From assembly GCA_910575005.1 (NCBI GenBank), contig CAJTCL010000005.1, positions 124,001 to 188,000 on the forward strand: a DNA stretch of 64,000 nt, given 5' to 3'. Position numbers and translations under genes: made by a program. This stretch comes from Lachnospiraceae bacterium (GTDB lineage Bacteria > Bacillota > Clostridia > Lachnospirales > Lachnospiraceae). Under the pieces are notes generated by a model. The model was not told the origin of the DNA. It made no database searches and saw only the letters and a program-made list of their open reading frames with translations. Shown in pieces: positions 8,846-57,079 of the stretch (position 1 is the stretch's first letter; the number at the start of each line of letters is the position of its first letter).

Positions 8846-8890
8846 AAAATGCCAGCAGAGTTACTTAGTTATAACTCTGCTGGCATTTTT
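8846..8890 (+). terminator. Bidirectional intrinsic terminator after pyrG
   Basis: AAAATGCCAGCAGAGTTA pairs perfectly with TAACTCTGCTGGCATTTT around a short loop, flanked by A-rich and T-rich tracts. It can end pyrG on the plus strand and the HAD gene (stop at 8931) on the minus strand. Confidence 0.93.
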
Positions 8891-8930
8891 CTGGTATCAG
8901 GTGGAGATGATGCCAGACTCTAGGTCATTC

Positions 8931-38247: not shown

Positions 38248-38272
38248 ACTTTTCCCCGCTTAGATTTTCAAT

Positions 38273-40411: not shown

Positions 40412-40548
40412 CTCTCTTCTCCTTTTTCTATATTGAAATATTTGGAGTATGTGCGTTAGGGCGGCCACGCCCTTTTATCATACAGAACACACGTGTAAAT
40501 CAATTTAAGAAATAAGAATAGGATTACACAATCTTTATTTTTCTATAC

Positions 40549-40623
40549 AAAAAAGGCACTAACACACATAAACATCCAAAATATTTATGCATAGTTAATG
40601 CCTCGCTAATCACAAGTAACATA
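40549..40623 (-). promoter_or_regulatory. RAT antiterminator overlapping an intrinsic terminator
   Basis: On the minus strand TATGTTACTTGTGATTAGCG (then AGGCATTAACT; 40623-40593) matches the two-block RAT pattern (GTTACTG...CAGGCAT) bound by GlcT-type proteins. Its 3' block AGGCATTAAC is also the 5' arm of a terminator whose other arm is GTTAGTGCCT, followed by TTTTTT (40549). The two structures exclude each other, the standard antitermination layout. The leader then runs about 140 bases to the EIICBA start and includes a small AGGGCG/CGCCCT hairpin at about 40458-40473. Confidence 0.85.
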
Positions 40624-40639
40624 CTATATCATGTGTATT

Positions 40640-40668
40640 AATTTATCATTGTATTTCCCTTTTGTCAA
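40640..40668 (-). promoter_or_regulatory. Promoter of the PTS operon
   Basis: On the minus strand TTGACA (40668-40663), a 17-base spacer and TAAATT (40645-40640). Transcription would begin near 40633, about ten bases before the RAT, as expected for this type of leader. Confidence 0.8.
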
Positions 40669-40740
40669 GGGGGATTAATCCAAAAAACATTTAATCATAG
40701 ATTTTATAAAAAACACAGATATATTCCAAAAACTACTATT

Positions 40741-41367
40741 CTATTTGTTCCAACCTTTTATAATTTCAAATATATCTAACATCCCCTTCTCTTTCTCTTC
40801 CATATTATGTACAAATTTATCTTGGTTCAGACCCCAAATTTTTAATATATTCTCAGCAAACTTTAACTTTTTGTCCTGCCCATTATATGGAGCTATATTA
40901 CTGATAAAACGCATCATCTCTAACTCCATCATATTCAAATGCCCCGAATGTCTTGCCCATGTCTCCTGGTATTTCTTGATATCCAGCCACTTCGATATGA
41001 TACTGCTCAAAAAAATCAGCAACACGATACTAAAACTAATTCCTGCTAGGGATAAAAATTTGGTATCATCTTTCCAAAATAAATGATACACAAACAGAGA
41101 TACATAAACTACCCAACAAAATATCAAAAGATAAAGAAAACATTTTTTCCAACGAAAATTTTCACTTTTATTATCTTCTTTTGCCCAAAAAACAAATTCA
41201 TAAACTGGTACAAATAATTCAAAAAAAGTATTTAAATCTTTTCCTCCTGATGGTTTTTTCCATTCTTCTTTCCATTCTTCTAATAATTGTTCCTTTTGTT
41301 CCGTTATTTTTCCTTTTGCCTTTTTACGATTCTCTTTAATCGCTTTTCTGTCCTCCCTTTTACTCAA
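40741..41367 (-). CDS. SLATT-like two-TM membrane protein of the RADAR locus
   Basis: 208-residue protein with a basic N-terminus, two close membrane segments (about 73-97, KCFLYLLIFCWVVYVSLFVY; about 104-128, FLSLAGISFSIVLLIFLSSI) and a helical C-terminal half (YQETWARHSGHLNMMELEMM ... PYNGQDKK). This layout resembles SLATT/DUF4231 proteins, the two-TM presumed pore-forming effectors of bacterial conflict systems, some of which accompany RADAR genes. The start is a TTG that overlaps the rdrB stop as TTGA; GGGAGGGAG six bases upstream supports it. It is the last gene of the RADAR cluster, with no clear terminator before position 40741. The SLATT assignment rests on topology and a few residues and needs a profile search. 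Confidence 0.72.
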   Translation of the reverse strand: MSKREDRKAIKENRKKAKGKITEQKEQLLEEWKEEWKKPSGGKDLNTFFELFVPVYEFVFWAKEDNKSENFRWKKCFLYLLIFCWVVYVSLFVYHLFWKDDTKFLSLAGISFSIVLLIFLSSIISKWLDIKKYQETWARHSGHLNMMELEMMRFISNIAPYNGQDKKLKFAENILKIWGLNQDKFVHNMEEKEKGMLDIFEIIKGWNK

Positions 41368-44300
41368 TTTATCTCCCTCCCATTTATGATAGCCCTTATT
41401 TTTTCTTCTAAGGCATTTTCATTTTCTTTCTCCAAAACTTCCCCGTTTTCTTCCCTGCCCTCAAGATTCCATCCAAAGCTCTGTTCATTGCCCATGACCC
41501 GAATTCTGTTCAACCATTCATAAATGTCATCCTTGTGATATACTGGTTCACCCTCTTCATCCAGCACAGACTCCAACGCCCGTGCCATTAACGCATATTC
41601 ATTCTCCAAAGAAGTACTAAATACTCCTTGATCATCGGTATTGATGGACACAGACAATTGCGGACATTCTTTTAACTGTTTTGGATCATGAACCAACCCT
41701 TTATTATAAAATTGGATAATGGGATGTTTCTCATATTGTCGAAATGTACCAATCAAATAATTGGAAGATGGGTTTGTCTCAATCGCAATTCCCCTTTCTG
41801 CTATTTCCCGCTGCATAATCTTCTGAATTGCCGCAACAGCATCCATATAATTGACAGAAATCGAAACTTCCATTGTTTTCTTTCCCATTTCCCTTATTCT
41901 TTCATTAAAATGATACATATAGTATAAATGTGCTGCCTCTGGAATCCTCCGTTTTTGCAGATCTTTTAAATAGTGAAAATTTACCCGAAATTCTTCCTGC
42001 CTTCCTATATAAAAATTCTCCTGAAAATCTCCACCCTCATATAAGTTCGGATCGTCCCCCCGCAGCTGCCAGGCATTATAATAATTGAACATGCTTAAAT
42101 CCAACTGTCTGCCGCTTTTTACAAAATGCCCCATATTTTCTTTATAAAGACGATCAAACAATATAGTATATTCCCCTTGAATCCATTCCTTTAAATTTTC
42201 AAAACCTCGAATATCATACTGAACTAGCTTGTGAAAAACCCATACCAGATTATCAAGATAATCCTGCACTGGCAAGGCAATCTGAAATCCTTTAGATTGA
42301 TACCATTCCCTGACATTAATCCCCAAGGCCAATGCATGTCCCAGCCGATCTCCAGACTCCAGGTTCAAAAATAAGATCGCTTCCTCAATCGCCCGCAAGC
42401 CATCTGCCAAATCTAAAAATTCTTCTCCTACATGGTAAGTAGCACTCAATTGTGGAAGCTTTACCATTCCATCACTGGTATAATATCTATACCTATGATT
42501 TTTCAGGTAACGAAACACCGATGCAAACACTTCGGGACGGCATTCAAGCTCATTTGACGCGGCATCAATGCCTAAAACTCGTTCTCCAACTTTCGGATAT
42601 TTCTCTCTCAGACCAGTCAGAGCATATGCCTGACGCTCTATATACTTGCGCCTTTGATAATTACGACAATATATACATTCGGTATTTTTCGGTATTTTAT
42701 CAGCAGATTTGATAAAATGAACCGTGTAAAACATATTTTTCTTCCAGGTTTTATCAGGAAGCACTAGCCGATCCAGCTCTCGAATTTGACGACAAATTTT
42801 CTCAGTATCACTTTCAGGTGCAATTCTCAATTCTATTTTACGAATATTTTTCGATACTAAACTATTGGAAATTGCAAGCCTGGTAAATTCCTTTCTATAA
42901 ATATCATCTGTAAGCAAATTGCTTTTTCGTTTCTCATATTTTTGGAAATTTTTGAATCCAACATTTTTATTGGACTGTATCAGTTCGGATCTTATACTTT
43001 CTTTTATCAATAAATAAGCATAAAACAGATTAAAATAGGCCTTATATTTCTTGTCATTTAAGTAAATCTTTCTTAACATAATATACATCAGCCAACGTTC
43101 ACCGGAAAAAATAAAATTGTCTACTTCCTTTTCAGAACCTTTAAATTTCAAGTGATCTAAAATATAATCTAAACTTTTAACCCCACGGATATTTTTAAAA
43201 TCTCCCAAACGAAATACATCTATCAGAGACTGTAAAGATTCTTGTTCACTGATCAGCTTTTCCGGTTCTTTCAATAGCTCCTTCACATTATGTAAAGTTT
43301 TTATCTCCCAAATATTTTCGAAGACACTCTCATCCACAAAAAATTTTCTAATCTCTTCTAAAGATACCTGACCGACCAGAAAGAATGCTCTCAAAAATAA
43401 CTGCGACAACGGCAGGGCTATATTATTTTTTATCATCTTAGCCACCTGAAACTTATCTAACAGACAATCTCCTACTGCGCTCTCCAACAATTCTTTCAAT
43501 ACCAAATTTAACTTCCATATCTCCTGCCAATTAAGGCTATTCGTACAGCTTTCTATCACATATAAAATAAATTGTTGAAAAGTACAGTAATTCCACTGTT
43601 CCGTAGCAGTATAATTTCTTGTTTTGTGTATCTTTTCTGTAATATCCCCCTCCTTCTTATCTGCAAATAGCTTATCCAAAATTTTATCTGCTGCATCTTT
43701 ACTTAAACAGGGCTCTTTACCAAATTTCTGATAGCGAAAAATTGGAAATTCGATATCATTTTGGATTTCTGATACTGTAACCACGTATCTGCCAATCTTA
43801 AGCCGTTTTTCACAAATCTTGCAGTATAAGAGCAGACGAATCAAGGCCGCCTGCATATATCGCTCATAAAAAGATTTCTCTTTATATGCGCTTGTATAAG
43901 CTACATTTGTATATCTTCGATCTTTGTCATAAATGCGCAAGTATTTTCCCAGCTTTGACACATTCACATTATTCATCAGACTAAGCCAGGAAATCTGGAA
44001 AATCGGAGCAGCCCCATTTAAATGGAAATGATTTTCGGAAATTCCTCGGCGGACAACTGCATTGAGCTGTGCATTATTGTGATCAATCACTGTCTTCCAG
44101 GAAAACCCCCGCATCCTCATCTCCGTATGTGTCAGCTCTCGCGCCAAAAATGCTGTGATCAGCAAATCCTCACTTAACTCCGTAGTAATCTTTCTCCATG
44201 CCAACAATTGAGAATAACGGCAGCGAATCTCATTGTCACGTATCAAAAGAAATTCCTGTGCATAATAAAACAATGGTTCAAATACATTCAACTTTTGTGG

Positions 44301-44519
44301 AATCTTTCTTCCTCTCCCTTTGGCTGATTCCTGAAACATATCCAGAAAATATCTTAAGAGATTACGGGATTCATTTTCGCTATAATGAAACACATAAGAA
44401 GTAGTCATCCTTATAAATTCTTCTTGATCAAAATTATCACTTATTATATCATCCTCAATCACCTGCTGAACTGGAATCCTTTTGTAAAACAGTTCAATAA
44501 TAGTTTCCAGATTTTCCAT
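41364..44519 (-). CDS. rdrB: RdrB-like divergent adenosine deaminase of a RADAR defence system
   Basis: Large (1051 residues) protein with the dispersed active site of the adenosine/AMP deaminase superfamily. The zinc-ligand HxH is in SENHFHLNGAAP (about 164/166), the third His in TYHVGEE (about 696), a conserved block RLGHALALG (about 724) and the Asp pair in VSINTDDQGVF (about 957-963). Long insertions separate these blocks, unlike metabolic deaminases of about 340 residues. Together with the ATPase gene just upstream (20-base gap) this matches RdrB of RADAR (Restriction by Adenosine Deaminase Acting on RNA). In published systems RdrA and RdrB form a giant complex that deaminates adenosine in RNA or ATP on phage infection. 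A CxxC pair (ECIYCRNYQ) lies in the middle. The gene is intact and likely active. Confidence 0.9.
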   Translation of the reverse strand: MENLETIIELFYKRIPVQQVIEDDIISDNFDQEEFIRMTTSYVFHYSENESRNLLRYFLDMFQESAKGRGRKIPQKLNVFEPLFYYAQEFLLIRDNEIRCRYSQLLAWRKITTELSEDLLITAFLARELTHTEMRMRGFSWKTVIDHNNAQLNAVVRRGISENHFHLNGAAPIFQISWLSLMNNVNVSKLGKYLRIYDKDRRYTNVAYTSAYKEKSFYERYMQAALIRLLLYCKICEKRLKIGRYVVTVSEIQNDIEFPIFRYQKFGKEPCLSKDAADKILDKLFADKKEGDITEKIHKTRNYTATEQWNYCTFQQFILYVIESCTNSLNWQEIWKLNLVLKELLESAVGDCLLDKFQVAKMIKNNIALPLSQLFLRAFFLVGQVSLEEIRKFFVDESVFENIWEIKTLHNVKELLKEPEKLISEQESLQSLIDVFRLGDFKNIRGVKSLDYILDHLKFKGSEKEVDNFIFSGERWLMYIMLRKIYLNDKKYKAYFNLFYAYLLIKESIRSELIQSNKNVGFKNFQKYEKRKSNLLTDDIYRKEFTRLAISNSLVSKNIRKIELRIAPESDTEKICRQIRELDRLVLPDKTWKKNMFYTVHFIKSADKIPKNTECIYCRNYQRRKYIERQAYALTGLREKYPKVGERVLGIDAASNELECRPEVFASVFRYLKNHRYRYYTSDGMVKLPQLSATYHVGEEFLDLADGLRAIEEAILFLNLESGDRLGHALALGINVREWYQSKGFQIALPVQDYLDNLVWVFHKLVQYDIRGFENLKEWIQGEYTILFDRLYKENMGHFVKSGRQLDLSMFNYYNAWQLRGDDPNLYEGGDFQENFYIGRQEEFRVNFHYLKDLQKRRIPEAAHLYYMYHFNERIREMGKKTMEVSISVNYMDAVAAIQKIMQREIAERGIAIETNPSSNYLIGTFRQYEKHPIIQFYNKGLVHDPKQLKECPQLSVSINTDDQGVFSTSLENEYALMARALESVLDEEGEPVYHKDDIYEWLNRIRVMGNEQSFGWNLEGREENGEVLEKENENALEEKIRAIINGREIN

Positions 44520-44539
44520 AGCACTTTTCCCCTTACCTT

Positions 44540-47368
44540 TTATTCATTTGAAAATCCCTTCAACTTTGACAAAACATTTTTAATAAATTCTTTCTTTTCC
44601 TTTTCCTCCTCTTTGTCTTCTTCAAAAAAATACTTTACTACAGGACATCTCTCAAAACGCTCTGCTAGCTGGTAGGGATAAGCATTCTCTTTTTCTTCCT
44701 CTTGTCCTTTCGCCTCTTCTTCCTCTTGTCCTTTATTCTTATCCTCTTCATTAAACTGATAAAACTTATCCTGTTCCTTTAATTGCCCCGCAATATTTTC
44801 ATATAGCTTTTTAATGTAAAAGAATGTATCTTCTGACTTAGATGAAACAATGAATTCCTCATTCATCTCTCTCCTAACTCTCTTTAAAATATTATAGGTA
44901 AAATCAAACCAAAACAATGGCAGAGGAAGCACAAATCTCCCAAATTTCTGTTCCCATTCTTCAAATTTTGTTTTTAAAGAATATTTATCCAATACAGCCT
45001 TAAATCCTGCTTTTAATTTGGTCTCTCCATTATCTGTTTCCAATAGTTCATACTGTTTTCCCAGACAGTCGATCAATCCATTTTCAAATTTTTCTAATAT
45101 TTTAACTGCATCAATCGAATTTGTCACAAAGTTTAACACGCTGTAGTCTCCTACAAAAGAAATATCAACAGAACCCTCTATTCTAGGAACAAATATAATA
45201 CGAAATTTACCATTATTAAAGAATCTAATATTAAATTCCCACTTAAAAGAATCGGATTCTAAATCGACATTTCCCTCTTGTTTATCTTCCTTGATATTTG
45301 AAAAAAACAAAAATACCAGTTCCATATCTCTGATCAATTTAGCCACATATTGACATTTTTTTTCTTCTTTAAACTTTTGCCTGTCCTCCAGTGCAACACT
45401 TAGTATATTTGACAGTGTAACATTTTTGCAATTTGAAAAATATTCAAAAACCTTGTTGCTTTTATCCCTGCTCGCTGTTCCCTGTTCCTCAACATCCTTA
45501 TTCCGTTCCCTAATCGTATTGGGCATAATCTCCATTGACCAGCGATCCACAATATTACTGCCAATCAGAGCTTTAAACGTTCCCTTTTTCACTAACTGAA
45601 TCTCATTACTCTTAATTTTCAATTTCTCATAGATATAGGAACGGGTAAAAACATAAGAAAAATATCCCAGTAAATAATGAACTAACGTTTTATATCTACC
45701 ACCTTCTATACGGCCTAATTCATAAATCGTCTCCACTAACTGCCCATAACTGCAGTCTTCTACACTTTTCATCCCATCGTCTTTTTTCGCTGTATTTCCA
45801 GGCGAATAAATCTCTGCATTTTCACAATAATTAAAATTGATCACTTGACTTATTGTTCCGTTGTCCTCTGTCATTATATTTGTTGTCAATTGATTTGCTG
45901 ACCGAATGCGGCGATAGAAATTGACCACCTCATCCTTGGCACGGCGAATATCTTGTTTCTCAATCATCTCACAGAATTTAACGATATCTTGTTGTGTATA
46001 CAGCTTCTCAACTACAATCCGGTTTCGTAATTCCTCTGTTAAAATTCTATAATTCTCACCCCATATTCGAATAGAATTCTCGGGTTGATCTTCACTCATT
46101 TTTTCACCAAAATAAATTTTATTCAACTCAATATTCTTCATTGAGTCCAGCATAAGGCAGAAACATGCCAATTGACGCATAGATTTTGGCTCATAAAAAT
46201 GCTGCTTCACTCCCTGGGAATCAAAACAAATCCCAATTTTTTTATACAATTCTAAAAATAAACTTCTCTTAATTTCAGAATCGTTTTTTTCTAAAAATAC
46301 TCCATCCATAGAATAATAATTACTGAGATCTGGTATATAGATACGATAGTTTACCGGCATAACTTTACTAATATAATCCGTCGCTAATTGATGAACACGA
46401 TCTTGCCCTTCACATAACAACTTATCTACCTTGGGCAGCACTTTATAAAAGTTCTTGGAAACAATGGACAACATTTGTTCCATGTCAACGGCCAGTAATA
46501 CAATGACATTCTCTACCATACAATACCTGTGAATTTTTTCCAGCATAGAAAACCCATTGTTGACATTCAAATCTATATCGTCTATGGCAATGACCACATA
46601 ATGTTCCCTGCTCTCCTCTACCATGCTCCGCCGTTCATATTTCATCAAAAAAGTAAACTTCTTAATCAATTCCTCAAAATCCTTTTTCACTTTTTGACTG
46701 CTAGAAAGACTCTGCAGACTGCTCATATAAGATTCCCCTGATACGCTCTGCCCTGTCCCCATACTTTCAATATCGCAGACCGTTCCATAGATTTCTTCCA
46801 GCTTTTTGAAAAGTTCCCTTTTCTTAAAAGCGAAATCCTCACCCTTACTGATACCGCCTTCCTCATCAAGATCCCTAAACTTTTGATATATCTGTGCCAA
46901 AACCACTTTAAAAATATCTTCTCCATGCTCTAAAAGAGAGCCGTCAATACAATCGAGACAAGTAAATAATGGGGTTTCCACATACTTAAACCTATAAAAT
47001 AAATCTTTGCTATTTCTCTTCTCATAACCATAATAATGCTTTAAGGCATCCATAAATGAAAGCATCACCGAAGTTTTTCCTGAACCACGTTTTCCAGCAA
47101 AAGTTATAATATTGGAAAATTTTTCAAAATCTTTGCCGACTCCTGCTTTATCATTTGCATAATAGGAACTGGTATATAGGCTTATTCCATAGTCGCTGTT
47201 ATATTTAAAATCACGGATAATATGATCTACCTGCAGAAATGCCCTCTTGTAAACAGAACTAAAAAAAGATGTTTGAAACTCACTGATATGCTCATAATGT
47301 GGCCCTGTGCTTTGAATATGTAGACGCACTACATCAATTAATGATACATGTTCCTTATCTTCACTCAT
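44540..47368 (-). CDS. rdrA: RdrA-like P-loop ATPase of a RADAR defence system
   Basis: 942-residue cytosolic ATPase. Walker A is in ITFAGKRGSGKTSVMLSF (about 92-99) and Walker B in YVVIAIDDIDLN (about 257-264), as in STAND/AAA-like NTPases. The remainder is helical with an acidic, low-complexity patch near the C-terminus (NKGQEEEEAKGQEEEKE). In known RADAR systems RdrA forms a seven-fold ring that docks onto the RdrB shell and activates or guides it. The ATG at 47368 has AGAGGG nine bases upstream; longer starts at 47386 or 47413 lack one. It lies 20 bases before rdrB and 137 bases after the TPR gene. A terminator-like hairpin lies between the TPR gene and this start. Confidence 0.88.
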   Translation of the reverse strand: MSEDKEHVSLIDVVRLHIQSTGPHYEHISEFQTSFFSSVYKRAFLQVDHIIRDFKYNSDYGISLYTSSYYANDKAGVGKDFEKFSNIITFAGKRGSGKTSVMLSFMDALKHYYGYEKRNSKDLFYRFKYVETPLFTCLDCIDGSLLEHGEDIFKVVLAQIYQKFRDLDEEGGISKGEDFAFKKRELFKKLEEIYGTVCDIESMGTGQSVSGESYMSSLQSLSSSQKVKKDFEELIKKFTFLMKYERRSMVEESREHYVVIAIDDIDLNVNNGFSMLEKIHRYCMVENVIVLLAVDMEQMLSIVSKNFYKVLPKVDKLLCEGQDRVHQLATDYISKVMPVNYRIYIPDLSNYYSMDGVFLEKNDSEIKRSLFLELYKKIGICFDSQGVKQHFYEPKSMRQLACFCLMLDSMKNIELNKIYFGEKMSEDQPENSIRIWGENYRILTEELRNRIVVEKLYTQQDIVKFCEMIEKQDIRRAKDEVVNFYRRIRSANQLTTNIMTEDNGTISQVINFNYCENAEIYSPGNTAKKDDGMKSVEDCSYGQLVETIYELGRIEGGRYKTLVHYLLGYFSYVFTRSYIYEKLKIKSNEIQLVKKGTFKALIGSNIVDRWSMEIMPNTIRERNKDVEEQGTASRDKSNKVFEYFSNCKNVTLSNILSVALEDRQKFKEEKKCQYVAKLIRDMELVFLFFSNIKEDKQEGNVDLESDSFKWEFNIRFFNNGKFRIIFVPRIEGSVDISFVGDYSVLNFVTNSIDAVKILEKFENGLIDCLGKQYELLETDNGETKLKAGFKAVLDKYSLKTKFEEWEQKFGRFVLPLPLFWFDFTYNILKRVRREMNEEFIVSSKSEDTFFYIKKLYENIAGQLKEQDKFYQFNEEDKNKGQEEEEAKGQEEEKENAYPYQLAERFERCPVVKYFFEEDKEEEKEKKEFIKNVLSKLKGFSNE

Positions 47369-47397
47369 TTTTCTATTCCCTCTCATAAATATTCCTA

Positions 47398-47455
47398 AAT
47401 AAAAAAATGACATCTAAAAACCGCAGTACACTGTCTCAGTCTCTAGATATCATTT
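47398..47455 (-). terminator. Terminator-like hairpin (possible attenuator) just before rdrA
   Basis: On the minus strand AAATGATATCTA (47455-47444) pairs with TAGATGTCATTT (47416-47405) with one G-U pair, around a 27-base loop, and is followed by seven T. It lies between the TPR gene stop (47506) and the rdrA start (47368). Only about 30 bases separate it from rdrA, too few for another promoter, so rdrA expression must pass through it. Confidence 0.65.
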
Positions 47456-47486
47456 GTCCCCGCTGTTTTCCCCTCAAATCCTTTAA

Positions 47487-47514
47487 TTTATAATTCTAAA
47501 TACCTCTAAGCCAA
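47487..47514 (-). promoter_or_regulatory. Possible internal promoter for rdrA-rdrB-SLATT
   Basis: On the minus strand TTGGCT (47514-47509) and TATAAA (47492-47487) are 16 bases apart, at the very end of the TPR gene. A transcript from here would start near 47480 and contain the hairpin at 47398-47455 in its leader. AT-rich sequence makes chance matches common. Confidence 0.35.
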
Positions 47515-48831
47515 ATACCCTACATATTTTGCATGTACATCCTGCAAATTCCTGCGGGCGCTGGCATCTACAATCGCTACATATACCTTCTGAATCTGTA
47601 GTTTTAATCTAGCAGCCTCCTTATACACCTCCCAGCTCTTCTTATTTTCGTCTTCCACAAAATTGTTGCCAAACATCCAGGGATAAAATCCCTTTTTGCT
47701 ATCCTCATTTCTTTTATTATTATAAATTTTTTCAGCTTTTTTCAAAAATTCAATCCCTTTTGTATAGTGCCCCGTCCGGTTATAAAGTACTCCCAATTTA
47801 CGATAAGCCTTATACAAGTAGGCACACTCCACAGTCTGCGATGACGGCAAATCCCACTTAATCCCTAAAATTTCCAGTATATCTTCCCATAACTCCTTCG
47901 CCTCTGTAAAATGGTTATGATCCTGTTCATTCAGCGCCAATTTATAAACCGCCCTGAAATTATGATGATCTGCTTCCACAGCTTTCCGATAATAGATCAT
48001 TTTCTTGTCCATATTTGGCCGTATCTTCTCATAGTATCTGCCTATCCGATAGTAAAGATAACTGGTATAAGATTTATCTCCAATCAATGCTATTGCCTTC
48101 TTGATATCATCTACGGACTCCACCATATAGTCCTCATTAATCTCCTTTACAAAGCCTCGGACTGCATAGGCAGCAAAAAATTGAGGCTCCTTATCCAGCA
48201 CCTTCTGGATATCCTCAATAACTGCTTCAAAATCAATATAATGTTCCTCATACAATTTTCTTAACTGTGTCTGAGGATCCAAATCTTTCTGATATTTTCC
48301 ATTATCAATTGCACTCCAAAGCATCGTATAGATTTCATAAATCCTTCTGCGGCAATTCGCCTTTGCCATCCAGAGATATACATTTCCCCAGGCTTTCTCT
48401 TCCCTGCTCTGTTCCAATAACTCTAATTGTCCTAAAACGCTCTCAAAATTCTCTATCGCCTGCTCCATCCGCTGATATATATATTTTCTTCCAGAGTTAC
48501 CAAAATAATCAATCGCATAGCTGCCACGCATTAAATCATACTCGTTGAACATTTCCCAAATCTGATTTAAAACTTCAAAATCTTCTTCTCCTACCTGTTC
48601 TTCCATCTCTATCAGGACAGAATTCACTCTATCCTCCAAGGATTCACTTCCATCCTCTGAACCCTCCTCAATCCTGCTGATCCAATCCACTTCATCGCCG
48701 TATTCATCCCCAATTAAATTCTCACATACAAAAATTCCCACAAAGCGAAAAAAAGCGGATAACATACGATACATTTTAACTTCTGCCGGATGATGTACAA
48801 TTTTAATACATCTTACATACTTGTTCTGCAT
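47506..48831 (-). CDS. TPR-repeat protein upstream of RADAR genes, possible new component
   Basis: 441-residue soluble protein. The N-terminal 50 residues alternate strand and helix (YVRCIKIVHHPAEVKMYRML ... GIFVCENLIG) as in a Rossmann-like or TIR-like start, but I see no catalytic signature. From about residue 120 onward it is helical, with several TPR-like units (AWGNVYLWMAKANCRRRIYE; QFFAAYAVRGFVKEINEDYM; YLYYRIGRYYEKIRPNMDKK; LYKAYRKLGVLYNRTGHYTK), suited to protein or ligand recognition. It ends ARRNLQDVHAKYVGYLA. GGGGGAG precedes the ATG. It is on the same strand as rdrA, 137 bases upstream, and behind the leader with the hexamer repeat. I know no RADAR subtype defined by such a gene; it could be a sensor, a regulator or an unrelated neighbour. 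Confidence 0.78.
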   Translation of the reverse strand: MQNKYVRCIKIVHHPAEVKMYRMLSAFFRFVGIFVCENLIGDEYGDEVDWISRIEEGSEDGSESLEDRVNSVLIEMEEQVGEEDFEVLNQIWEMFNEYDLMRGSYAIDYFGNSGRKYIYQRMEQAIENFESVLGQLELLEQSREEKAWGNVYLWMAKANCRRRIYEIYTMLWSAIDNGKYQKDLDPQTQLRKLYEEHYIDFEAVIEDIQKVLDKEPQFFAAYAVRGFVKEINEDYMVESVDDIKKAIALIGDKSYTSYLYYRIGRYYEKIRPNMDKKMIYYRKAVEADHHNFRAVYKLALNEQDHNHFTEAKELWEDILEILGIKWDLPSSQTVECAYLYKAYRKLGVLYNRTGHYTKGIEFLKKAEKIYNNKRNEDSKKGFYPWMFGNNFVEDENKKSWEVYKEAARLKLQIQKVYVAIVDASARRNLQDVHAKYVGYLA

Positions 48832-48870
48832 TCTATTGCTCCCCCATACATAATATATTTCAATACTAAA

Positions 48871-48924
48871 TTATGAAAAAAATATATTATGTTGATAAGG
48901 AACGATGTTTTTCACTGACTGCAT
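48871..48924 (-). CDS. Possible 17-residue leader peptide
   Basis: An ATG at 48924 with a very strong site (GGAGGGAGG, four bases away) opens a 17-codon frame, MQSVKNIVPYQHNIFFS, ending at TAA 48871-48873, 39 bases before the TPR gene. Too short to judge by composition; the ribosome site is stronger than that of the TPR gene itself. It could couple or attenuate translation or transcription of the downstream genes. Confidence 0.4.
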   Translation of the reverse strand: MQSVKNIVPYQHNIFFS

Positions 48925-48977
48925 TGGTCCTCCCTCCATCTATTCATTACAATTAATAGGTTACCAGAATGGCAAAA

Positions 48978-49049
48978 GCAAATATAAATATAAATACAAA
49001 TGCAAATGCAAATGCAAATGCAAATGCAAATGCAAATGTAAATGCAATT
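48978..49049. repeat. Hexanucleotide repeat array (GCAAAT)n
   Basis: Twelve consecutive six-base units on the plus strand. Six are perfect GCAAAT (49002-49037); the flanking ones differ by one or two bases (GCAAAT, ATAAAT, ATAAAT, ACAAAT before; GTAAAT, GCAATT after). It lies about 150-220 bases upstream of the TPR gene start, inside the probable 5' leader of the RADAR-associated transcript. Confidence 0.92.
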
Positions 49050-49538
49050 TTTCGTATATTTTTTATATTTTCCAAACAATTTATGCCAATTCTATAGATA
49101 TAATATATATTATATACCTTTATCCAGATTTAAACAATTGGCAATTATTACAAACTTATTCTAAAACTTTTAAATAACATGTAAATATTAACATATATTA
49201 CAATTTCCTTTACTCTATCTATAATTTCATTCCATGTAAACCAAATTTTTATTACAATTCGCCCATTTTACAGATACAATTATTTGGAAAAAAACTATAT
49301 TTTTATTAAAGGTGGTGTATTTTGAAGTGAATCGTCATGAAATTAATGGTAAGTAGATCAAAGAATTCACCTTCCTTCTATGTTCATATATTTTGAAAAT
49401 GCGAGGATTCCTTAGAATTATCAGGTTTCCTCGCATTTAGGCTTTTAAAGATGGGAATTTATCACTGTAATATCTTTTTATCAAAGGATTTTTATACTTA
49501 TTGCTGTCCACGCTCATGCAGTCCGCAACACTTCCTTT
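49050..49538. other. AT-rich non-coding stretch with one hairpin
   Basis: No gene is supported here. AAATGCGAGGA (49397-49407) pairs with TCCTCGCATTT (49428-49438), a clean stem that may end transcription of the surface-protein gene on the minus strand (stop at 49539), although the T-run is weak. The remainder is A/T-rich and holds the possible promoter at 49109-49137. Confidence 0.5.
49109..49137 (-). promoter_or_regulatory. Possible promoter of the TPR/RADAR transcript
   Basis: On the minus strand TTGTTT (49137-49132), a 17-base spacer and a perfect TATAAT (49114-49109). The leader would then be about 270 bases and include the hexamer array and the 17-codon frame. The region is very AT-rich, so other -10-like words exist. 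Confidence 0.45.
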
Positions 49539-50186
49539 TTACTTTACAGTAATACTGCAAGTCGCTTTTTTTCCACTAGAAGCCTTTACTGTAATCTTTA
49601 TTTTGCCCTTTTTTAAAGCTGTCACCTGACCATATTTATCTACCTTTGCAATCTTTTTATTAGAGCTGCTCCAAGTAAGGAAATCGGTAGACTGTTTTGG
49701 TTTCACAGCTGCCTTTAGCGTCAATTTTTTTCCTCTCTTTATCGTTGCAGATTTCTTATTTAGAGTGACTTTTTTTGCTTTTTTTCTTTTGGAAACAACA
49801 TATACTTTTATTTTTTTCTTTTTACTTCCAGCTTTCGCTGTAATAATTGTTGTTCCTGTTTTCTTAGCGCTGATCTTCCCCTTCTTTACAGTCGCAACTT
49901 TCTTATTTGAGACAGACCAGACCACTTTATCGGTGCTATTTTCAGGCATGACGTTTGCTTTTACTGTGATACTTTTTCCCTTTAGTAAATAAATCTGTGT
50001 TGTACTCAAAGTAATTTTTGTCGCCGGAATCCTAACTGTTATTTTACAAGTCGCTTCTTTTCCTCCAGCCTTTGCTGTTATCACTGCTGTTCCTGCTCCT
50101 TTTTCTGTCACCTTTCCATTCTCCACAGTCGCTACCCTCTGATTGGAACTGCTCCACAACACTTTTTCTGTGATTCCTTGGGGCAT
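49539..50186 (-). pseudogene. C-terminal Big2 repeats cut off by a frameshift from the upstream surface protein
   Basis: This 215-codon frame starts in the middle of a Big2 domain (IMPQGITEKVLWSSSNQRVA) and contains two more Big2 repeats, each with the W-SSN-VATV pattern, ending KKATCSITVK. It has no signal peptide and no ribosome site. The preceding frame ends inside the matching first half of the same domain (LTLTKGKSTVLKAP). Adding one base near 50190 joins the two into an unbroken Big2 domain. So these are the displaced C-terminal domains of the gene at 50186-54904. Confidence 0.82.
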
Positions 50187-53100
50187 TATGGTGCTTTTAG
50201 CACAGTGCTTTTTCCTTTTGTCAGAGTTAAATTCGTCTTATTCAGCGTGATTTTTTCTACCTTTACTTCTGTCTCTGTTTCTTCCTCTACTGTCACCTTA
50301 CAGATCGCCTCTTTTTCTCCAGCCTTTGCCGTTATCACTGCGCTTCCTGCTCCTTTTGCTGTCACCTTTCCATTCTCCACAGTCGCTACCTCTGTATTGG
50401 AAGAAACCCAGCTAATATTTGCACTGGCCGCTTCCTGCGGTTCTATCTTTGCAGTTAATGTTTGCACCTCTCCCTTTTTCATAGAAAGATTGGACATATC
50501 TAACCTGATACTGGTGACAGCAGGCATAATGGTAATCTGATCATGAATAGAAGATAACTGATATGGATTTATCATACAAAAATTAATGGTTTTTTGATCT
50601 GTCACATACCATTTTACTTGACCGTCTGACGTACGCACTGGCGCACAATCTGACAGTCTAAGATTTGTCTCAGTGATCTTTGAAGTCAAGGTTCCTTCTG
50701 CGTTTATCGTTACCATTTGAACAGTGGTCTCTTTTGAGGTACGATGGTATTCCTCCCACATAACCAGGAATTGTTCTTCGTTCAATTTTACGATACTTGG
50801 CGTATACGGCGCGATATCGGAATCTTCTTTGTAATCCGTCAGCCAGATCATGTCACTGCTATTGAGCTGTTTACTTGACACGGACAAGAAGATATTTCGC
50901 TGGCCATCTGCAGAATAATTATTCTCATCACTCTGATCTACAGAATTTCCTACAATCAAACAGTTTTCGGAAGACAACTCTAAACCTCCGATAGACACTC
51001 CTGTAGCATTATCTCCCATGTATCCATTGATCGACAGCGGCAAGCTATAAGAAATATCTGTAATTCTTCCATCTGTCTCACATCTTGTCAACACAACTGC
51101 TCTGGGATAGGCGTCTCCATGATCTACACGAAATACATAGTCGCCGTCTGTCTGCACAAACTGATTAAAAGAATGGCTGACATATCCTGCTTGTGCCAGA
51201 TTTAGCACATCATGGAAGGACTGCTCTATTTCCATTGTCTCTTCATTTAACACAAATGTCATATTTGCCTGATGGTAATCATACATTTCATGACAAGTAT
51301 GAATGTAAAGCCTTCCATTTGTTTCGTCCATGCGAAGGGAGCCCGCCGTAAAGGGATAACATGTATTTGCCCCTTTGACAGAAGCCTGCCCCAAACGTTC
51401 CCAATTTTTATTATATTTTACAATTCGCAGTACTTCTATGTCATCGCTTTGTGTTTCATTTTCCTGTCCAAAGACAAAATAGTTTGCATCTTTTCCTGAA
51501 TAAAAACCGCCAAAGATTGCCAACTCACACTCCAATACTTTGCTTGACTGCAATTGATACTGTGAGGAATAATTTTCTATTACAATCCCTTTGTCTGCGA
51601 TATATTCTACTCTCGTTAAAGTTTTGTCATCGTTTTCCACCAGATACGAATTTACTACTCTTCCATATCGTTCGTAATTATTAGATGAATAATTAGAGCT
51701 AATTGCGCCATCTCCTTTGACAATATTTTTCGCTGGTAATATGGTATCTCCTGCAGTCACTGTAATCTTAATTGTGGCGCTTAGAGAATCTGTAACTTTT
51801 GCTGTTATTACTGCTGTCCCCTCTTTCCAGGCAGCTAATTTTCCTCCTTGTGTCACAGACACGATACTGTTGTCACTGCTGGACCATTTCGGAATTAAAG
51901 TATAATTTTTATCAAATTCTAAGGAAAGGGTTTGACAGTCACCTACTTTCATTGTTTGATGATCTGCATGAATTTTGATTTGTGAAGCAGCCCCCCAATC
52001 CAAAATTTCCATATAATATGCATCATTATCTTTTTCAATTGCCACTACAAAATCACCCATTTTAAGCATATTAAATACTTTATATTTTGTCTGGTAAGAG
52101 GCAAGTTTCTCTTTTGTGCAAAAAGAATACTCTGATATTGTCTTGTTATTTTCATAAAGAATGATACTGTCATTCGCCTCATGATAGACTGCCCGCACTC
52201 CAATACTGCAAAGATCATCTATCGCCTCGTCTTCTTCGTCTTCCGCCGCTTCTCTTGGGAAATTCATAATTCTATTAATCCCCTCATCATTTACGGAATG
52301 AGAATCATAAACGCTAACGATACTATGCAGCGCGCTTGTTCCTGTCATATATTTTCCTCCAAGCAGCTCTGCGCAGGTCTGATGATCCATATAGACATCT
52401 TGGCATAAATACATAAGGCAGCTCATACTTCGCGAAATCATACCACTTTCCAGAAAAGAATTATAGGTATCAATATAGGATAATTTATTTCCATCCCATC
52501 TGCCCATTGTCAGGCCTTTTCCTGGATGAGACATTCCCCAGGCATAAAAGTCATAAAAAGTCTCCATATAAAAATGTCCATTGGTACTGTCAAAACCAGA
52601 AAACGCATATACATCCAGACCCATAAGCAATTCAGAAATTTTTTCTCCATTTTCTGAGAATAGTAAAATCATTTTTCTCTTTGAGTGATACTTGTCAAAG
52701 CCGCCCATATAAATATTGCCTCTATCATCTGCTCCAATTGCGGAGATCTCATAATCTGAGACAGAAAACTTAGAGAGGAGCGACTGTGTTGTCAAATCAT
52801 AGACATAACAAGTATAGTTGTAGTAAAGATATAGTTTTTCCTTTGCAACATAAGCACTATCACATCCAGGAAATGTTGTAACCACTTGATAATCTTTTGT
52901 GATCAGGGAATAAAATCCCAGTTCTTTGCCATTTAAAAAATATATTCCATGCAGTTTTTCTGAAACAATCTGCTTCGTAGGCACATATACATCTGTATAA
53001 TCCAATAGTCCCTCTAAATTCTGTAAATCATAATCTGGCATAGAAAATGGCTCCCCTGTCACGGTAATCAACAGTTCTGCCATGTATGTACCATCTTGAC

Positions 53101-54904
53101 TGGAAACTTGAATCTTTGCAGTACCAGGATTTACTGCAATTACTTTACCATTATTGGAGACAACCGCCACATTTTCATCACTGCTGGACCACTTAAAATC
53201 TACTGCAAGCATTGGATTGAGCTCTGCAGATAACTGAATGCTTTCCCCAACCTCTAATTGCTGAGATTCTGCTGTAATGCTTAACGTATTCTTTTCTAAC
53301 AATTGCGCCATATCTTCCCAAGTGATATTGGGAAAATTCTGCGGCATAGAATCCCAGCCTTCACAGTCAGAACGATAGAAAATCGTAAGTCCGTTTATTG
53401 TTGTATAATAGTTTTTAAATCCAGAGGGCAGATCTCCTTGAACTATCAAATATTTTAAATTTATATCAGAAATAGCATAGGGAGCGATCGTGCGCAATGT
53501 TTCCGGCATTGTGTAAAAAGTCTTTTTATATCCTTTGGGAATCATAACTAATGTAGATTGAGTCTTATTCCATAAAACTCCTTCCGCCGACATATAAAAG
53601 GGATTTTCCGCTTCCACTTCTATACTTTCCAATTCACTGCAGCCCAAAAAAACCCGATCTTCTATCAATTCCACTTTTTGAGGAATCCTGACTTTCTTAA
53701 GATGATAGCAGTCAAAAAATGCCTCCCTTTTTATTGTGGTAAGTTCTTGGGGCAATAAAATATTCTCTAAATTGCCACACTCATAAAATGCACTGCTTCC
53801 AATAACGGTTACGCTATCAGCAATCTGCACTTCCTTTAATTTATCAAATTCACAAAAAGCCGCTTTACCAATATTAGTTACCCCATCCTTGATTACAACA
53901 GAGGTAATATAAGAACGATACACATAATATGGTGGTCTTAGCACATCATTATAACTAACTCTTTCATAATCTGTCATACCGCCGTTGCCAGAAATCTCAA
54001 GCACGCCTCTCTTCAAATCCAAATCCCAAGTTAAATTTTCTCCGCAGGCATGTGAAATAGTATCTGATTCAATAAATGTGATGTTATTTTCTTGTGCATA
54101 AGTATCTGCCGCTGTACCGCTGGTTCCCAAAATTTTTAACAATGATGAATAATATATTCCCTCTTTCCCATTATTGCAGTAATATCCCAATGCATGATCC
54201 CCGATACTTATCACTTGTTCTGGTACAATTGTGATTTCCATAGATGTGCAGCCTAAAAATGCCTGATTTCCAATCTCAGTCAGCGTATTTGGGAAATCTA
54301 CTTTTATCAGACCAAAACAAAAAGCGAAAGCCGTTGCGCCCACAGAAGTTACCCCTTCTTCGATCTGAATAGAAGTAATGACGTCCCCATAGGGATAAAA
54401 GGGAGAATCTGTTGCATATTCATAATCTGCCATTTTTCCATTTCCGCTTACTATCACTTCTCCAGTTTCTGTGTCCAATTGAAAATTAACATTTTCACCA
54501 CACGTTCCAGTCACAATTCCTTGTGTGGCTGCATGCGCTAATTGCCCATCTGATTCCAGTATATGATCTGCTGCGGATGATTCCTTTTCTTCCTTGAAAG
54601 TTTCTATTTCTTCCTCTTGTGCTTTTTCTTGTCGATTCTCTTCTATGCGCTTTGCTGCCTGTGCACCAACAAAAACAGATTCCTCTTGCATGTCTATGCC
54701 CTTTAATGGCTCTTGTTCCACTGCTTTTTCTGGCATAGATACAGCGGCGCTTTCTTCTTTTGATATTCCTTCTTTTAACTCCTGATCTACAATATTTTCT
54801 TCTGCCAATCCTTCTGCAGATACAGGATATACTGGCAGCAATTTCGTTACCATTACCGCTGCCAGAATGCCACATAATATTTTTGTCACTTTGGCATTTT
54901 TCAT
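50186..54904 (-). CDS. Large surface protein: BspA-like LRR, Big2 and propeller-like regions (frameshifted near its end)
   Basis: 1572-residue exported protein. Signal peptide about 1-31 (KILCGILAAVMVTKLLPVYP), then an acidic, disordered stretch. LRR_5/BspA-like repeats occupy about 150-270 and 300-490 (KVDFPNTLTEIGNQAFLGC, EVQIADSVTVIGSSAFYEC). A first Big2 domain follows (about 545-625, VDFKWSSSDENVAVVS). Two long beta-rich regions rich in YNYT, YMGG and DDRGNIYMGG patterns look like propellers and are separated by a second Big2 (LIPKWSSSDNSIVSV). A third Big2 (ISWVSSNTEVATVENG) precedes the break at 50186. The ATG at 54904 has GAGGAG upstream. No LPXTG anchor is seen. Likely an adhesin or glycan-binding surface protein. 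Confidence 0.85.
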   Translation of the reverse strand: MKNAKVTKILCGILAAVMVTKLLPVYPVSAEGLAEENIVDQELKEGISKEESAAVSMPEKAVEQEPLKGIDMQEESVFVGAQAAKRIEENRQEKAQEEEIETFKEEKESSAADHILESDGQLAHAATQGIVTGTCGENVNFQLDTETGEVIVSGNGKMADYEYATDSPFYPYGDVITSIQIEEGVTSVGATAFAFCFGLIKVDFPNTLTEIGNQAFLGCTSMEITIVPEQVISIGDHALGYYCNNGKEGIYYSSLLKILGTSGTAADTYAQENNITFIESDTISHACGENLTWDLDLKRGVLEISGNGGMTDYERVSYNDVLRPPYYVYRSYITSVVIKDGVTNIGKAAFCEFDKLKEVQIADSVTVIGSSAFYECGNLENILLPQELTTIKREAFFDCYHLKKVRIPQKVELIEDRVFLGCSELESIEVEAENPFYMSAEGVLWNKTQSTLVMIPKGYKKTFYTMPETLRTIAPYAISDINLKYLIVQGDLPSGFKNYYTTINGLTIFYRSDCEGWDSMPQNFPNITWEDMAQLLEKNTLSITAESQQLEVGESIQLSAELNPMLAVDFKWSSSDENVAVVSNNGKVIAVNPGTAKIQVSSQDGTYMAELLITVTGEPFSMPDYDLQNLEGLLDYTDVYVPTKQIVSEKLHGIYFLNGKELGFYSLITKDYQVVTTFPGCDSAYVAKEKLYLYYNYTCYVYDLTTQSLLSKFSVSDYEISAIGADDRGNIYMGGFDKYHSKRKMILLFSENGEKISELLMGLDVYAFSGFDSTNGHFYMETFYDFYAWGMSHPGKGLTMGRWDGNKLSYIDTYNSFLESGMISRSMSCLMYLCQDVYMDHQTCAELLGGKYMTGTSALHSIVSVYDSHSVNDEGINRIMNFPREAAEDEEDEAIDDLCSIGVRAVYHEANDSIILYENNKTISEYSFCTKEKLASYQTKYKVFNMLKMGDFVVAIEKDNDAYYMEILDWGAASQIKIHADHQTMKVGDCQTLSLEFDKNYTLIPKWSSSDNSIVSVTQGGKLAAWKEGTAVITAKVTDSLSATIKITVTAGDTILPAKNIVKGDGAISSNYSSNNYERYGRVVNSYLVENDDKTLTRVEYIADKGIVIENYSSQYQLQSSKVLECELAIFGGFYSGKDANYFVFGQENETQSDDIEVLRIVKYNKNWERLGQASVKGANTCYPFTAGSLRMDETNGRLYIHTCHEMYDYHQANMTFVLNEETMEIEQSFHDVLNLAQAGYVSHSFNQFVQTDGDYVFRVDHGDAYPRAVVLTRCETDGRITDISYSLPLSINGYMGDNATGVSIGGLELSSENCLIVGNSVDQSDENNYSADGQRNIFLSVSSKQLNSSDMIWLTDYKEDSDIAPYTPSIVKLNEEQFLVMWEEYHRTSKETTVQMVTINAEGTLTSKITETNLRLSDCAPVRTSDGQVKWYVTDQKTINFCMINPYQLSSIHDQITIMPAVTSIRLDMSNLSMKKGEVQTLTAKIEPQEAASANISWVSSNTEVATVENGKVTAKGAGSAVITAKAGEKEAICKVTVEEETETEVKVEKITLNKTNLTLTKGKSTVLKAP

Positions 54905-54954
54905 AAGCTCCTCACCTTTCCCTCCCATTCTTCTTAATTAAATATCCGTGCATA

Positions 54955-55014
54955 CCCGCAGGGCACTTAGCATGGCGGCTTGGCTAAGTGCCCTTTGGGT
55001 GCGTTGCTCGCGGG
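54955..55014. repeat. Strong intergenic palindrome
   Basis: AGGGCACTTAGC (54960-54971) pairs perfectly with GCTAAGTGCCCT (54983-54994). An outer CCCGC (54955-54959) can pair with GCGGG (55010-55014). It lies between two surface-protein genes. No T-run follows on either strand, so it is not a standard terminator; it looks like a REP-like intergenic element. Read from the minus strand it is downstream of the LRR gene at 55043. Confidence 0.65.
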
Positions 55015-55042
55015 AATAAAATATTGCAAAATTCCTGCCCGT

Positions 55043-57022
55043 TTATTTCTTGATACTGCCGCTTTTCTTTACACTGCTCCATGCGCCGTACAACATATTT
55101 TTCCCAGATTTCTTATAACTGCGCACCCTTACATAATATTTGCTTTTGGCTTTTAGTTTTGTAAAAGTATAGGTATTTTTAGACAACTTCTTTTGCTTTG
55201 CAATCTTCTTGAAATTCTTGGCTGTGCTCAACTGTACCTGATACCCAGTCACTCCCTTGTCCTTTGCCCATTTCACAGTCAGCTTCTTGCCTTTTGCTGT
55301 CTTAATTGATTTAACCGCCTGCTTTTTAGGATTTACTTTTACTGTCACCTTTACAGAATCTCTGCTTTCCTTTACAGTGATCACAGCAACCCCGCACCCC
55401 TTAACGGTTGCCTTACCGTTTTTATCTACTGTCACCACTTTCTTGTCTGAACTCGTGTAAGTAAGCTTATTTGTGGAGAAAGCTTCGATTGTAAATGGTT
55501 TTACACCATATGTGACATCATAAGTTTTCTTCTCACATGTGATCCTATCTGCCAGCCGGAATATAACCCCATGAGCCTTTGCCCACTCTTCTGCCTTAGA
55601 ATTTTTATACCCATAGATAATAATGTTCTTATCAAATGAATTACCTTGAATAGAAGTCACACTTTTTGGAATCGTCACACTCTTTAAACTGCTGCAGCCC
55701 TTAAATGCATTATATGAAATATGTGTCACACTGTCGGGAATTGTTACGCTTTCCAAACTTTCACAACCCGCAAAGGTAAACCCTTCAATCACTTTTACTC
55801 CATTGAGAATTGTTACACTTTTTAAACTGCTGCAATTCCGAAACGCTGAAGCAATTCTTGTCACACTCTTTGGAATTGTTATGGTTGTCAAGCCGCTGCA
55901 ATCGCTAAAAGCTCCTCTGAGATCTGTTAGACTATTGGGCAGTGTTATGCTCTTTAAGCTGCTACAGCCGCTAAATGCGCCAACAATAGAGGTCACACTG
56001 TCGGGGATTTTCACACTTTCCAAACTTTCACAACCCGCAAAGGTAGACCCTTCAATCACTTTTACTCCATTGGGAATGATTATACTTCTTAAACTGCTGC
56101 ACCCCTCAAATACTCCTGCATAACTTGACTTTCCAATAACCGCCATATGATCTGGCAGCACAATATCGGTCAGACTGCTGCACCGATAAAATGCTGCGCC
56201 TTCGATAGAAGTCACACTGTCGGGAATTTTCACGCTTTTTAAATTTTTACAATTTCCAAACACCCCCCGACTAATCGTTTTCACCCCTTCTGGAATCACT
56301 ATACTTTCCAGACTAGTGCAGAGTGAAAATGCATCCGAACCAATTGACGTCACGCTGTCGGGAATCGTTATATCTTTTAAGCTGCTGCATGCTATAAATG
56401 CTTCGCTCCCAATAGAAGTCACACTGTCGGGGATTTTCACACTTTTTAAATTGCTGCACAGATCAAATGCACATCGCTGTATAGATTTCACTCCATTAGG
56501 AATCGTCACACTTGTCAAACTGCTGCATTCATAAAATACACTGTCATTAATAGTTGTGAGATGAGCTGGAAGCACAATATCTGTTAATCTTCCACAGCCC
56601 CAAAAAGCTCCCTGTTCAATAGAAATCACACTATTCGGTATGCTGACACTTGTTAAGTTACTGCAGCCGCTAAACGCAGATTCTCTAATAAATGTCACTC
56701 CATCTGGAATTGTCACACTTGTCAAACTTGTGCAACTTGAAAATGCATATTCTCCAATAGCTGTCACTCCATCTGGAATTACAACCTTCCCACCCTTGCC
56801 ATTATATTTTGTGAGAGTTCCCTCCTCATCAATCACAAACTCATCTTCACTGCTTTGATCAGTCTCCAATACCTGCGCTTCCTGCGCGGCTTCCATTGCC
56901 TGAATTTCTTCCACAGTTCCACTGCCCGGGCTAACTTCCTGTGCCTGAATGACTGTCGCTGGAAGATTGGAAAGTACCAGCGCTGTGACCATCCCAAGAG
57001 ATAATAATTTTTTCTTACTCAT
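55043..57022 (-). CDS. BspA-like leucine-rich-repeat surface protein
   Basis: 659-residue exported protein. Signal peptide about 1-27 (LLSLGMVTALVLSNLPATVI). Some sixteen LRR_5 repeats fill about residues 55-470, with the regular pattern SLTSVTIPDGVTFIRESAF and a Cys in most units. They are followed by GYKNSKAEEWAKAHGVIF, the usual capping strand. A Big2-like domain (about 500-565, KLTYTSSDKKVVTVDKNG) and a basic FN3-like C-terminal module (about 575-655, GVTGYQVQLSTAKNFKK ... KYYVRVRSYKKSG) end the protein. No sortase motif. Such proteins mediate adhesion in several gut and oral anaerobes. The repeats are so alike that recombination within the gene is likely. Confidence 0.9.
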   Translation of the reverse strand: MSKKKLLSLGMVTALVLSNLPATVIQAQEVSPGSGTVEEIQAMEAAQEAQVLETDQSSEDEFVIDEEGTLTKYNGKGGKVVIPDGVTAIGEYAFSSCTSLTSVTIPDGVTFIRESAFSGCSNLTSVSIPNSVISIEQGAFWGCGRLTDIVLPAHLTTINDSVFYECSSLTSVTIPNGVKSIQRCAFDLCSNLKSVKIPDSVTSIGSEAFIACSSLKDITIPDSVTSIGSDAFSLCTSLESIVIPEGVKTISRGVFGNCKNLKSVKIPDSVTSIEGAAFYRCSSLTDIVLPDHMAVIGKSSYAGVFEGCSSLRSIIIPNGVKVIEGSTFAGCESLESVKIPDSVTSIVGAFSGCSSLKSITLPNSLTDLRGAFSDCSGLTTITIPKSVTRIASAFRNCSSLKSVTILNGVKVIEGFTFAGCESLESVTIPDSVTHISYNAFKGCSSLKSVTIPKSVTSIQGNSFDKNIIIYGYKNSKAEEWAKAHGVIFRLADRITCEKKTYDVTYGVKPFTIEAFSTNKLTYTSSDKKVVTVDKNGKATVKGCGVAVITVKESRDSVKVTVKVNPKKQAVKSIKTAKGKKLTVKWAKDKGVTGYQVQLSTAKNFKKIAKQKKLSKNTYTFTKLKAKSKYYVRVRSYKKSGKNMLYGAWSSVKKSGSIKK

Positions 57023-57079
57023 AACATCATCCTCCTTTTATTTATATCATTGTTATACTATGAATACATAATCTCTGTT

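Follow-up and report, generated by a model that had tools for sequence, protein, structure and literature searches.

The question raised by this locus is whether a RADAR-type anti-phage system of a Lachnospiraceae bacterium consists of three genes, or whether it includes a fourth that could tell the system when to act. The locus lies in a stretch of 64,000 nucleotides (positions 124,001 to 188,000 of contig CAJTCL010000005.1, assembly GCA_910575005.1), which we call the window and to which our coordinates refer. In published RADAR, rings of RdrA dock on a shell of RdrB, and infection leads to the conversion of ATP to ITP (PMC9994260); the trigger is described there as unclear, and the C-terminal domain of RdrA is hypothesised to be the sensor. 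We propose that the window probably holds a divergent four-gene RADAR operon, in which a tetratricopeptide repeat (TPR) protein is an extra core subunit that most likely senses phage or serves as an adaptor, acting on RdrA. The four genes follow one another, in the order of transcription, from 48831 down to 40741:

47506..48831, minus strand: TPR-repeat protein of 441 amino acids (aa), with TPR repeats behind an N-terminal domain (about residues 1-115), identified from the list of open reading frames (ORFs), profile searches and neighbourhood counts; likely the first gene of the RADAR operon
44540..47368, minus strand: RdrA, AAA+ ATPase of 942 aa (957 aa with the ATG at 47413), with the motifs GKRGSGKT and IAIDDID
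41364..44519, minus strand: RdrB, adenosine deaminase (ADA) of 1051 aa, with H164, H166, H696, E699, H728 and D962/D963
40741..41367, minus strand: SLATT-type membrane protein of 208 aa, with two predicted transmembrane segments and the motif KKYQETWARHS

An original prediction had described the last three of these genes as a RADAR module, and the trio is indeed present with every motif that was quoted: RdrA and RdrB lie 20 bp apart on the same strand, the RdrB gene and the 208-aa gene (start codon TTG) overlap by 4 bp, and the 208-aa protein has two stretches of hydrophobic residues (74-99 and 101-130). The 441-aa gene was missed by that inventory. From its first ATG, the frame of RdrA spans 44540-47413 and encodes 957 aa; the start at 47368, which gives 942 aa, has by eye the better ribosome-binding site, GAGAGGGA.

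Comparison with RADAR profiles, the check proposed with that prediction, was favourable. Both window proteins match the PADLOC models (RdrB 2.7e-34, RdrA 9.5e-16) as well as the NCBIfam models (RdrB 5.5e-59, 200.5 bits against a cut-off of 800; RdrA 9.1e-27, 93.8 bits against a cut-off of 600). Neither protein reaches the naming cut-offs of these narrow NCBIfam models, which we read here as markers of close relatives; because the RADAR systems of E. coli, C. rodentium and S. suis are all protective though they share only 22-28% identity in conserved parts (PMC9994260), scores below the cut-offs still allow the system to be RADAR. In searches of the Protein Data Bank (PDB), RdrB matched the E. 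coli RdrB structures 8FNV/8FNW (6.1e-32 with the single sequence, 2.3e-50 with the profile of the clade), and the RdrA clade profile matched E. coli RdrA over the ATPase region (2.7e-19) and S. suis RdrA (3.2e-12; 8FNT, 8FNU), the identities of these two RdrA entries being those given in PMC9994260. As a single sequence, RdrA matched no RdrA in the PDB, its sole match being an unrelated chain at 0.59; the PADLOC RdrA model matches 19 of the 20 aligned clade RdrAs at E ≤ 0.001. Judged by these profiles, the homology of both proteins to those of RADAR is clear and their divergence large.

The zinc and catalytic residues of E. coli RdrB, H152, H154, H498, E501 and H530 (PMC9994260), align with H164, H166, H696, E699 and H728 of the window protein. 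To describe conservation we use 36 trios, each a set of TPR protein, RdrA and RdrB, with the window included. H164, H166, H696, E699, N960, D962 and D963 of RdrB are identical in all 36 trios and H728 in 35, with one gap; G110, G112, K113, D278, D279 and D281 of RdrA (numbering of the 957-aa form) are likewise identical in 36 of 36. Because the zinc/catalytic and Walker residues are conserved across the trios, both active sites, the Walker site of RdrA and the zinc site of RdrB, look intact. The spacing of 530 residues between H166 and H696 would, from the sequence alone, leave room for insertion 2, one of the insertions that build the dodecamer of RdrB. The locus thus resembles the RADAR of E. 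coli P0304799.3 and S. suis SS993 in its adjacent AAA+ RdrA and ADA-type RdrB with aligned Walker and zinc/catalytic residues, but differs from both in its large sequence divergence, in the TPR gene before RdrA and the SLATT gene after RdrB, and in the length of RdrB, which has 1051 aa against 798-799 aa in the solved chains and contains an insert (approximately residues 245-420) that varies within the clade: of 12 aligned relatives, 3 have most of it and 9 lack most of it.

The evidence that ties the TPR gene to this system comes from its distribution. A TPR profile built from seven copies (A2), searched against every ORF of 50 aa or more in 103 loci, gave 44 matches, or 38 once six duplicates were removed, and 37 of these 38 lie directly upstream of an RdrA gene on the same strand (the exception is L072 12620-13810). 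Measured from longest-frame starts, the gaps between the two genes range from -89 to +171 bp, and 12 of the 37 TPR genes overlap the RdrA frame; in L061 and L056, where the order is SLATT-TPR-RdrA-RdrB, the TPR gene keeps its place before RdrA. In an RdrB tree of 94 rows, all 36 rows with a TPR gene, including the window, fall within one group of 42 rows (support 99), mostly Lachnospiraceae, and a mixture-model tree of 74 rows, from which 20 long-branch or near-duplicate rows were left out, places the same 42 rows on one side of a branch (SH-like approximate likelihood ratio test, SH-aLRT, 99). Contig ends make four clade members impossible to assess (L058, L070, the first copy in L095, and L101); the TPR gene is present in 36 of the 38 others, and in 29 of 31 if the seven A2 training loci are set aside.

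The gene is also specific to this setting. RdrB-like genes occur in 15 of the 397 genomes of the window's family (19 genomes gave matches, four of them by short housekeeping-type ADAs of 220-376 aa). A second TPR profile (A3) finds 8 places above 300 bits in the 397 genomes, the next best scoring 34.5, and all 8 lie within the 15 RdrB genomes; seven of the eight are themselves members of A3, so that the count tests absence elsewhere and not co-occurrence. In the 382 family genomes that lack RdrB, scoring of at most the four best candidates in each yielded no full-length copy. Among 391 class-level genomes, 8 of which have RdrB relatives (the window's own genome included, and one a mere 64-aa piece), the only full-length TPR copy is that of the window's own genome, the next best match reaching 52.2 bits over the repeats. 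Within this RADAR clade, the TPR gene is near-obligatorily linked to RdrA. Of the predicted complete and catalytically intact module, then, the deaminase does look intact by residue alignment, and completeness with three genes has become doubtful, because the TPR gene is a near-constant neighbour of RdrA in the clade.

The sample behind these trees leans towards the window's kin, because the 80 genome-contig loci in it are the best 80 of 182 matches. Rows were dropped for seven duplicate loci, for RdrB pieces shorter than 600 aa (L078, two in L094, and L117) and for L132, which has no RdrB ORF. Some loci are compound: L060 has TPR-RdrA-RdrB and then a second TPR-RdrA in tandem, and L095 has the tandem RdrA-RdrB-TPR-RdrA-RdrB. 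Three genomes carry two RADAR-like loci each, with RdrBs that stand apart in the tree (L031/L047 in G176, L034/L046 in G029, L041/L045 in G345); the window's own genome has one RdrB.

To assess how the TPR protein has evolved relative to its partners, we compared pairwise identities and distances among the trios. Median pairwise identity is 39% for RdrB, 27% for RdrA residues 1-400 and 20% for residues 401-957, and for the TPR protein 20% in the TPR part and 18% in the N-terminal domain; the TPR protein thus diverges at the rate of the C-terminal part of RdrA. Its distances correlate with those of both RdrA parts (split at residue 430) with r 0.90, and with those of RdrB with r 0.865. The partial correlation with the C-terminal part of RdrA is 0.65 given RdrB and 0.46 given RdrB and the ATPase part, and that with the ATPase part is 0.40 given RdrB and the C-terminal part. 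In each of five partial tests, none of 1000 permutations gave a value as high.

The repeats are faint in the window protein, where the best Pfam match, TPR_17 at 6.3e-4, is below cut-off, and plainer in its family, in which TPR families match up to 24 of 37 members at E ≤ 0.1, the best at 6.4e-12 (alignment A3). Several identities for the protein were tried, and none was adopted. Kinship with Csx1/CARF proteins, suggested by PADLOC matches of 0.0015 and 0.0028 in the window protein, recurs in 1 of 37 members at E ≤ 0.01 and is ascribed to chance; the Pfam family Csm6_6H, found in only 3 of 37 members (best 0.014), was not accepted. The RdrD model NF041745 has no match at the TPR or SLATT genes, and none above cut-off, in 10 genomes or records. 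Two models with neighbouring accessions turned out to describe other systems and not further RADAR genes (PDLC02220 is Tmn, NF041746 is Drt2), and no RADAR-named NCBIfam model is among the best 25 of the 34 families with matches in the 37 TPR proteins. For the N-terminal domain, the idea of a TIR domain arose by eye from one member (L060 8275-9516). Against a TIR profile of 25 pieces (26 of 30 loci were used, four partial matches being left out, and one piece was dropped for a stop) the domain gave P 0.024 over 54 columns, which is not significant, in a plausible register; in the same comparison response regulators gave P 0.21 and one half of the TIR set against the other gave 1.8e-27. An earlier comparison, with 14 TIR pieces and without minus-strand loci, had given P 0.065, and no TIR family is among the best 25 of the 27 Pfam matches of the TPR protein family at E ≤ 1.

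The gene at the other end of the operon is less constant. The 208-aa protein scores below cut-off with both DUF4231 (22.9 bits against 24.7) and SLATT_1 (25.8 against 41), and SLATT_1 matches 9 of 10 aligned members of its family (best 1.2e-12), which supports the SLATT-type membrane protein of the original prediction; we consider it likely to be of this type, by family resemblance and below the curated threshold. Among the 36 other TPR-gene loci, a SLATT gene lies within 2.5 kb of the module in 10 (once on the opposite strand), a Csx27-type membrane protein takes its place in another 10 (PADLOC Csx27 matches 10 of 10, best 4.2e-11; the candidate family PDC-M48A also 10 of 10, best 1.7e-7), neither was detected in 16, and the two together in none. 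Their position varies as well: each type can follow RdrB or precede the TPR gene. Two of the 16 loci without either gene have another membrane-protein ORF by the module (L071 5359-6039 and L081 5099-5911, with 4 and 3 predicted transmembrane segments), which may represent a third kind of accessory.

What the sequences themselves show is which genes are present, their homology, the conserved residues, the near-obligatory linkage of the TPR gene and its co-divergence with RdrA. As to how it might work, the nucleotide chemistry and the RdrA-RdrB assembly would carry over, by analogy, from published RADAR: RdrB would act as a zinc adenosine deaminase, most likely turning ATP and dATP into ITP and dITP when docked to the RdrA ATPase ring. 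We infer that the TPR subunit most likely binds RdrA and conveys the phage signal to it, or, alternatively, that it keeps RdrA from acting until some component of the phage binds. The interchangeable membrane protein (SLATT-type, Csx27-type, or none found) may be an accessory, perhaps an anchor or a component that acts on the membrane. The most specific form of the proposal, that in the gut-Clostridia branch of RADAR a separate and fast-evolving TPR sensor detects a component of the phage and activates the RdrA-RdrB deaminase, we advance tentatively.

Several observations weigh against such a role. The RADAR systems tested elsewhere protect with rdrA and rdrB alone (PMC9994260), and outside the clade the TPR gene is found in none of 45 RdrB rows with a recognised RdrA (40 of them with at least 1.5 kb of readable upstream sequence; 7 further rows have no recognised RdrA). 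Within the clade, L063, with readable upstream sequence, and L080, where no copy occurs within 361 bp, lack the gene, which may therefore be dispensable. In the window, the TPR gene and RdrA are 92 bp apart, or 137 bp if the later RdrA start is used. To the limit stated for the family count must be added that both TPR profiles were trained on RADAR-linked copies, so that distant free-standing relatives could escape them. The tie of the TPR protein is strongest with RdrA and is not exclusive, as its partial correlation with RdrB is 0.32 given both RdrA parts, and the shared descent of adjacent genes explains part of the co-divergence. Lastly, the N-terminal domain has no confident relative in the Pfam scan or in profile comparison. 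As to L063 itself, its RdrA is split into two ORFs (7355-9965), whether by decay or as a variant.

A TPR protein that is a core partner without being a sensor, such as an assembly adaptor, a chaperone, or a brake on RdrA or RdrB between infections, is a rather unlikely alternative and the one that survives best. A brake would be useful given the toxicity of RdrB when it is overexpressed in E. coli (PMC9994260), and a partner of this kind would suit both the co-divergence, strongest with RdrA, and the nature of TPR repeats as general protein-binding scaffolds. However, RADAR systems outside the clade manage without a brake, and the speed at which the TPR protein diverges (median identity 18-20%, compared with 39% in RdrB) would suit a surface that faces changing targets, yet it equals that of the C-terminal part of RdrA.

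It appears improbable that the machine is RADAR-like but that its deaminase acts on RNA or on an adenosine nucleotide other than ATP or dATP. The original RADAR report described RNA editing (according to the commentary PMC7699616), and the RdrB of the window is far from the NCBI model of the tested enzymes (200.5 against 800 bits), with its variable insert besides. Against this stand the identity of its zinc and catalytic residues to those of E. coli RdrB and the behaviour of E. coli RADAR, which showed a minor A-to-G signature in vivo and in vitro robust conversion of ATP to ITP, with no RNA editing detected (PMC9994260).

That this is an ordinary RADAR of rdrA, rdrB and SLATT genes, the TPR gene being merely a frequent neighbour with a separate function, seems to us very improbable. 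The protection afforded by two-gene RADAR, the two assessable clade members without the gene and the gap of 92-137 bp in the window would all agree with it, but a mere neighbour would hardly persist over deep divergence in 36 of the 38 members that can be assessed, be missing in full length, among the candidates scored, from the 382 family genomes without RdrB, overlap the RdrA frame in 12 of 37 cases with a largest gap of 171 bp, and keep its place in reordered modules. A nucleotide-metabolism operon unconnected with defence is hardly credible: the ADA Pfam domain of RdrB is above cut-off, but the housekeeping-type ADAs of the family are short, and the pairing with RdrA, the patchy distribution in the family and the empty site described below fit defence.

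Besides the RADAR of E. coli and S. suis, the closest known systems include the variants of RADAR associated with SLATT or Csx27 (Gao et al. 2020, via PMC11676413 and PMC7699616). The commentary PMC7699616 lists rdrAB, a Csx27-associated rdrABC and a SLATT-associated rdrABCD, the letters of the last of which it leaves unexplained in the portion available. The window resembles these variants in its small membrane protein, which is probably SLATT-type here and is Csx27-type in sister loci of the clade, and differs in the TPR gene, none being named in the available text of PMC11676413 or PMC7699616. None of the papers among the best-ranked results of searches of the open-licence literature deals with a TPR gene in RADAR; this gene may already have been noticed, for example within the rdrABCD of the 2020 discovery work. 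The RADAR of Aureibacter tunicatorum plasmid pAT1 shares the order RdrA, RdrB, SLATT, with an RdrB 35% identical over 77% of the query, but lies outside the clade and has no TPR gene. A functional analogy is offered by the Avs (AVAST) STAND NTPases, also ATPase-based defences, in one of which, Avs5, a repeat domain (TPR/Sel1 or pentatricopeptide repeat, PPR) is reported to be required for activation, and a phage protein that acts as the activator was found (PMC12931631). In Avs, ATPase and repeats are parts of one protein, with nucleases or Sir2 as effectors; in the window the repeats stand as a protein of their own and the effector would be a deaminase.

Two further features describe the setting of the operon:

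48850..48879, minus strand: promoter-like site 5' of the TPR gene, weak, with 9 of 12 consensus bases
40630..57064, both strands or unspecified: block of about 16.4 kb, missing from sister genome G422, that comprises the RADAR operon and three surface-protein ORFs

Promoter-like sites are common in this region, 46 being observed against 37.1 expected from shuffles (standard deviation 6.3). At 48972-49047, some 140 bp ahead of the TPR gene, there is a hexanucleotide repeat, GCAAAT, of 12.7 copies with 90% matches, which could vary in length and so in expression; the idea of such a repeat as a conserved switch was rejected, since a scan of the 500 bp that precede the TPR gene, made in 12 of 36 loci, showed none. 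The sister genome G422 has a phosphotransferase system (PTS) gene 98% identical to that of the window, and its homology covers 37996-40629 and resumes at 57065, so that the missing block comprises the RADAR operon together with BspA/leucine-rich repeat and immunoglobulin-like surface-protein genes. In seven other relatives the homology ends between 40627 and 40671. The block may have been gained in the window or lost in G422; the longest word common to both of its borders is 9 bp, and there is no tRNA gene within the window. No RdrB match was found among 50,697 phage records; 3 relatives occur in viral contigs, and 7 plasmid records have an RdrB relative, the gene being listed as hypothetical protein in six and named rdrB in the seventh (25% identical). 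Elsewhere in the window, an FtsH of 1290 aa (3152-7024) has Pfam matches that end at residue 610, with a long C-terminal part beyond, and a separate piece of M41 peptidase lies near the window end (63491-63976).

Because it is linked to RdrA, has the anatomy of a repeat protein, evolves as fast as the C-terminal part of RdrA and does so most tightly with RdrA, the TPR subunit is a concrete candidate, and one that can be deleted, for the missing trigger of RADAR. If the proposal is true, the clade that bears the TPR gene would define a RADAR subtype below the NCBI naming cut-offs, and the RADAR of this branch would be a split system of sensor, transducer and effector, in which the question of the trigger would be answered for the branch.

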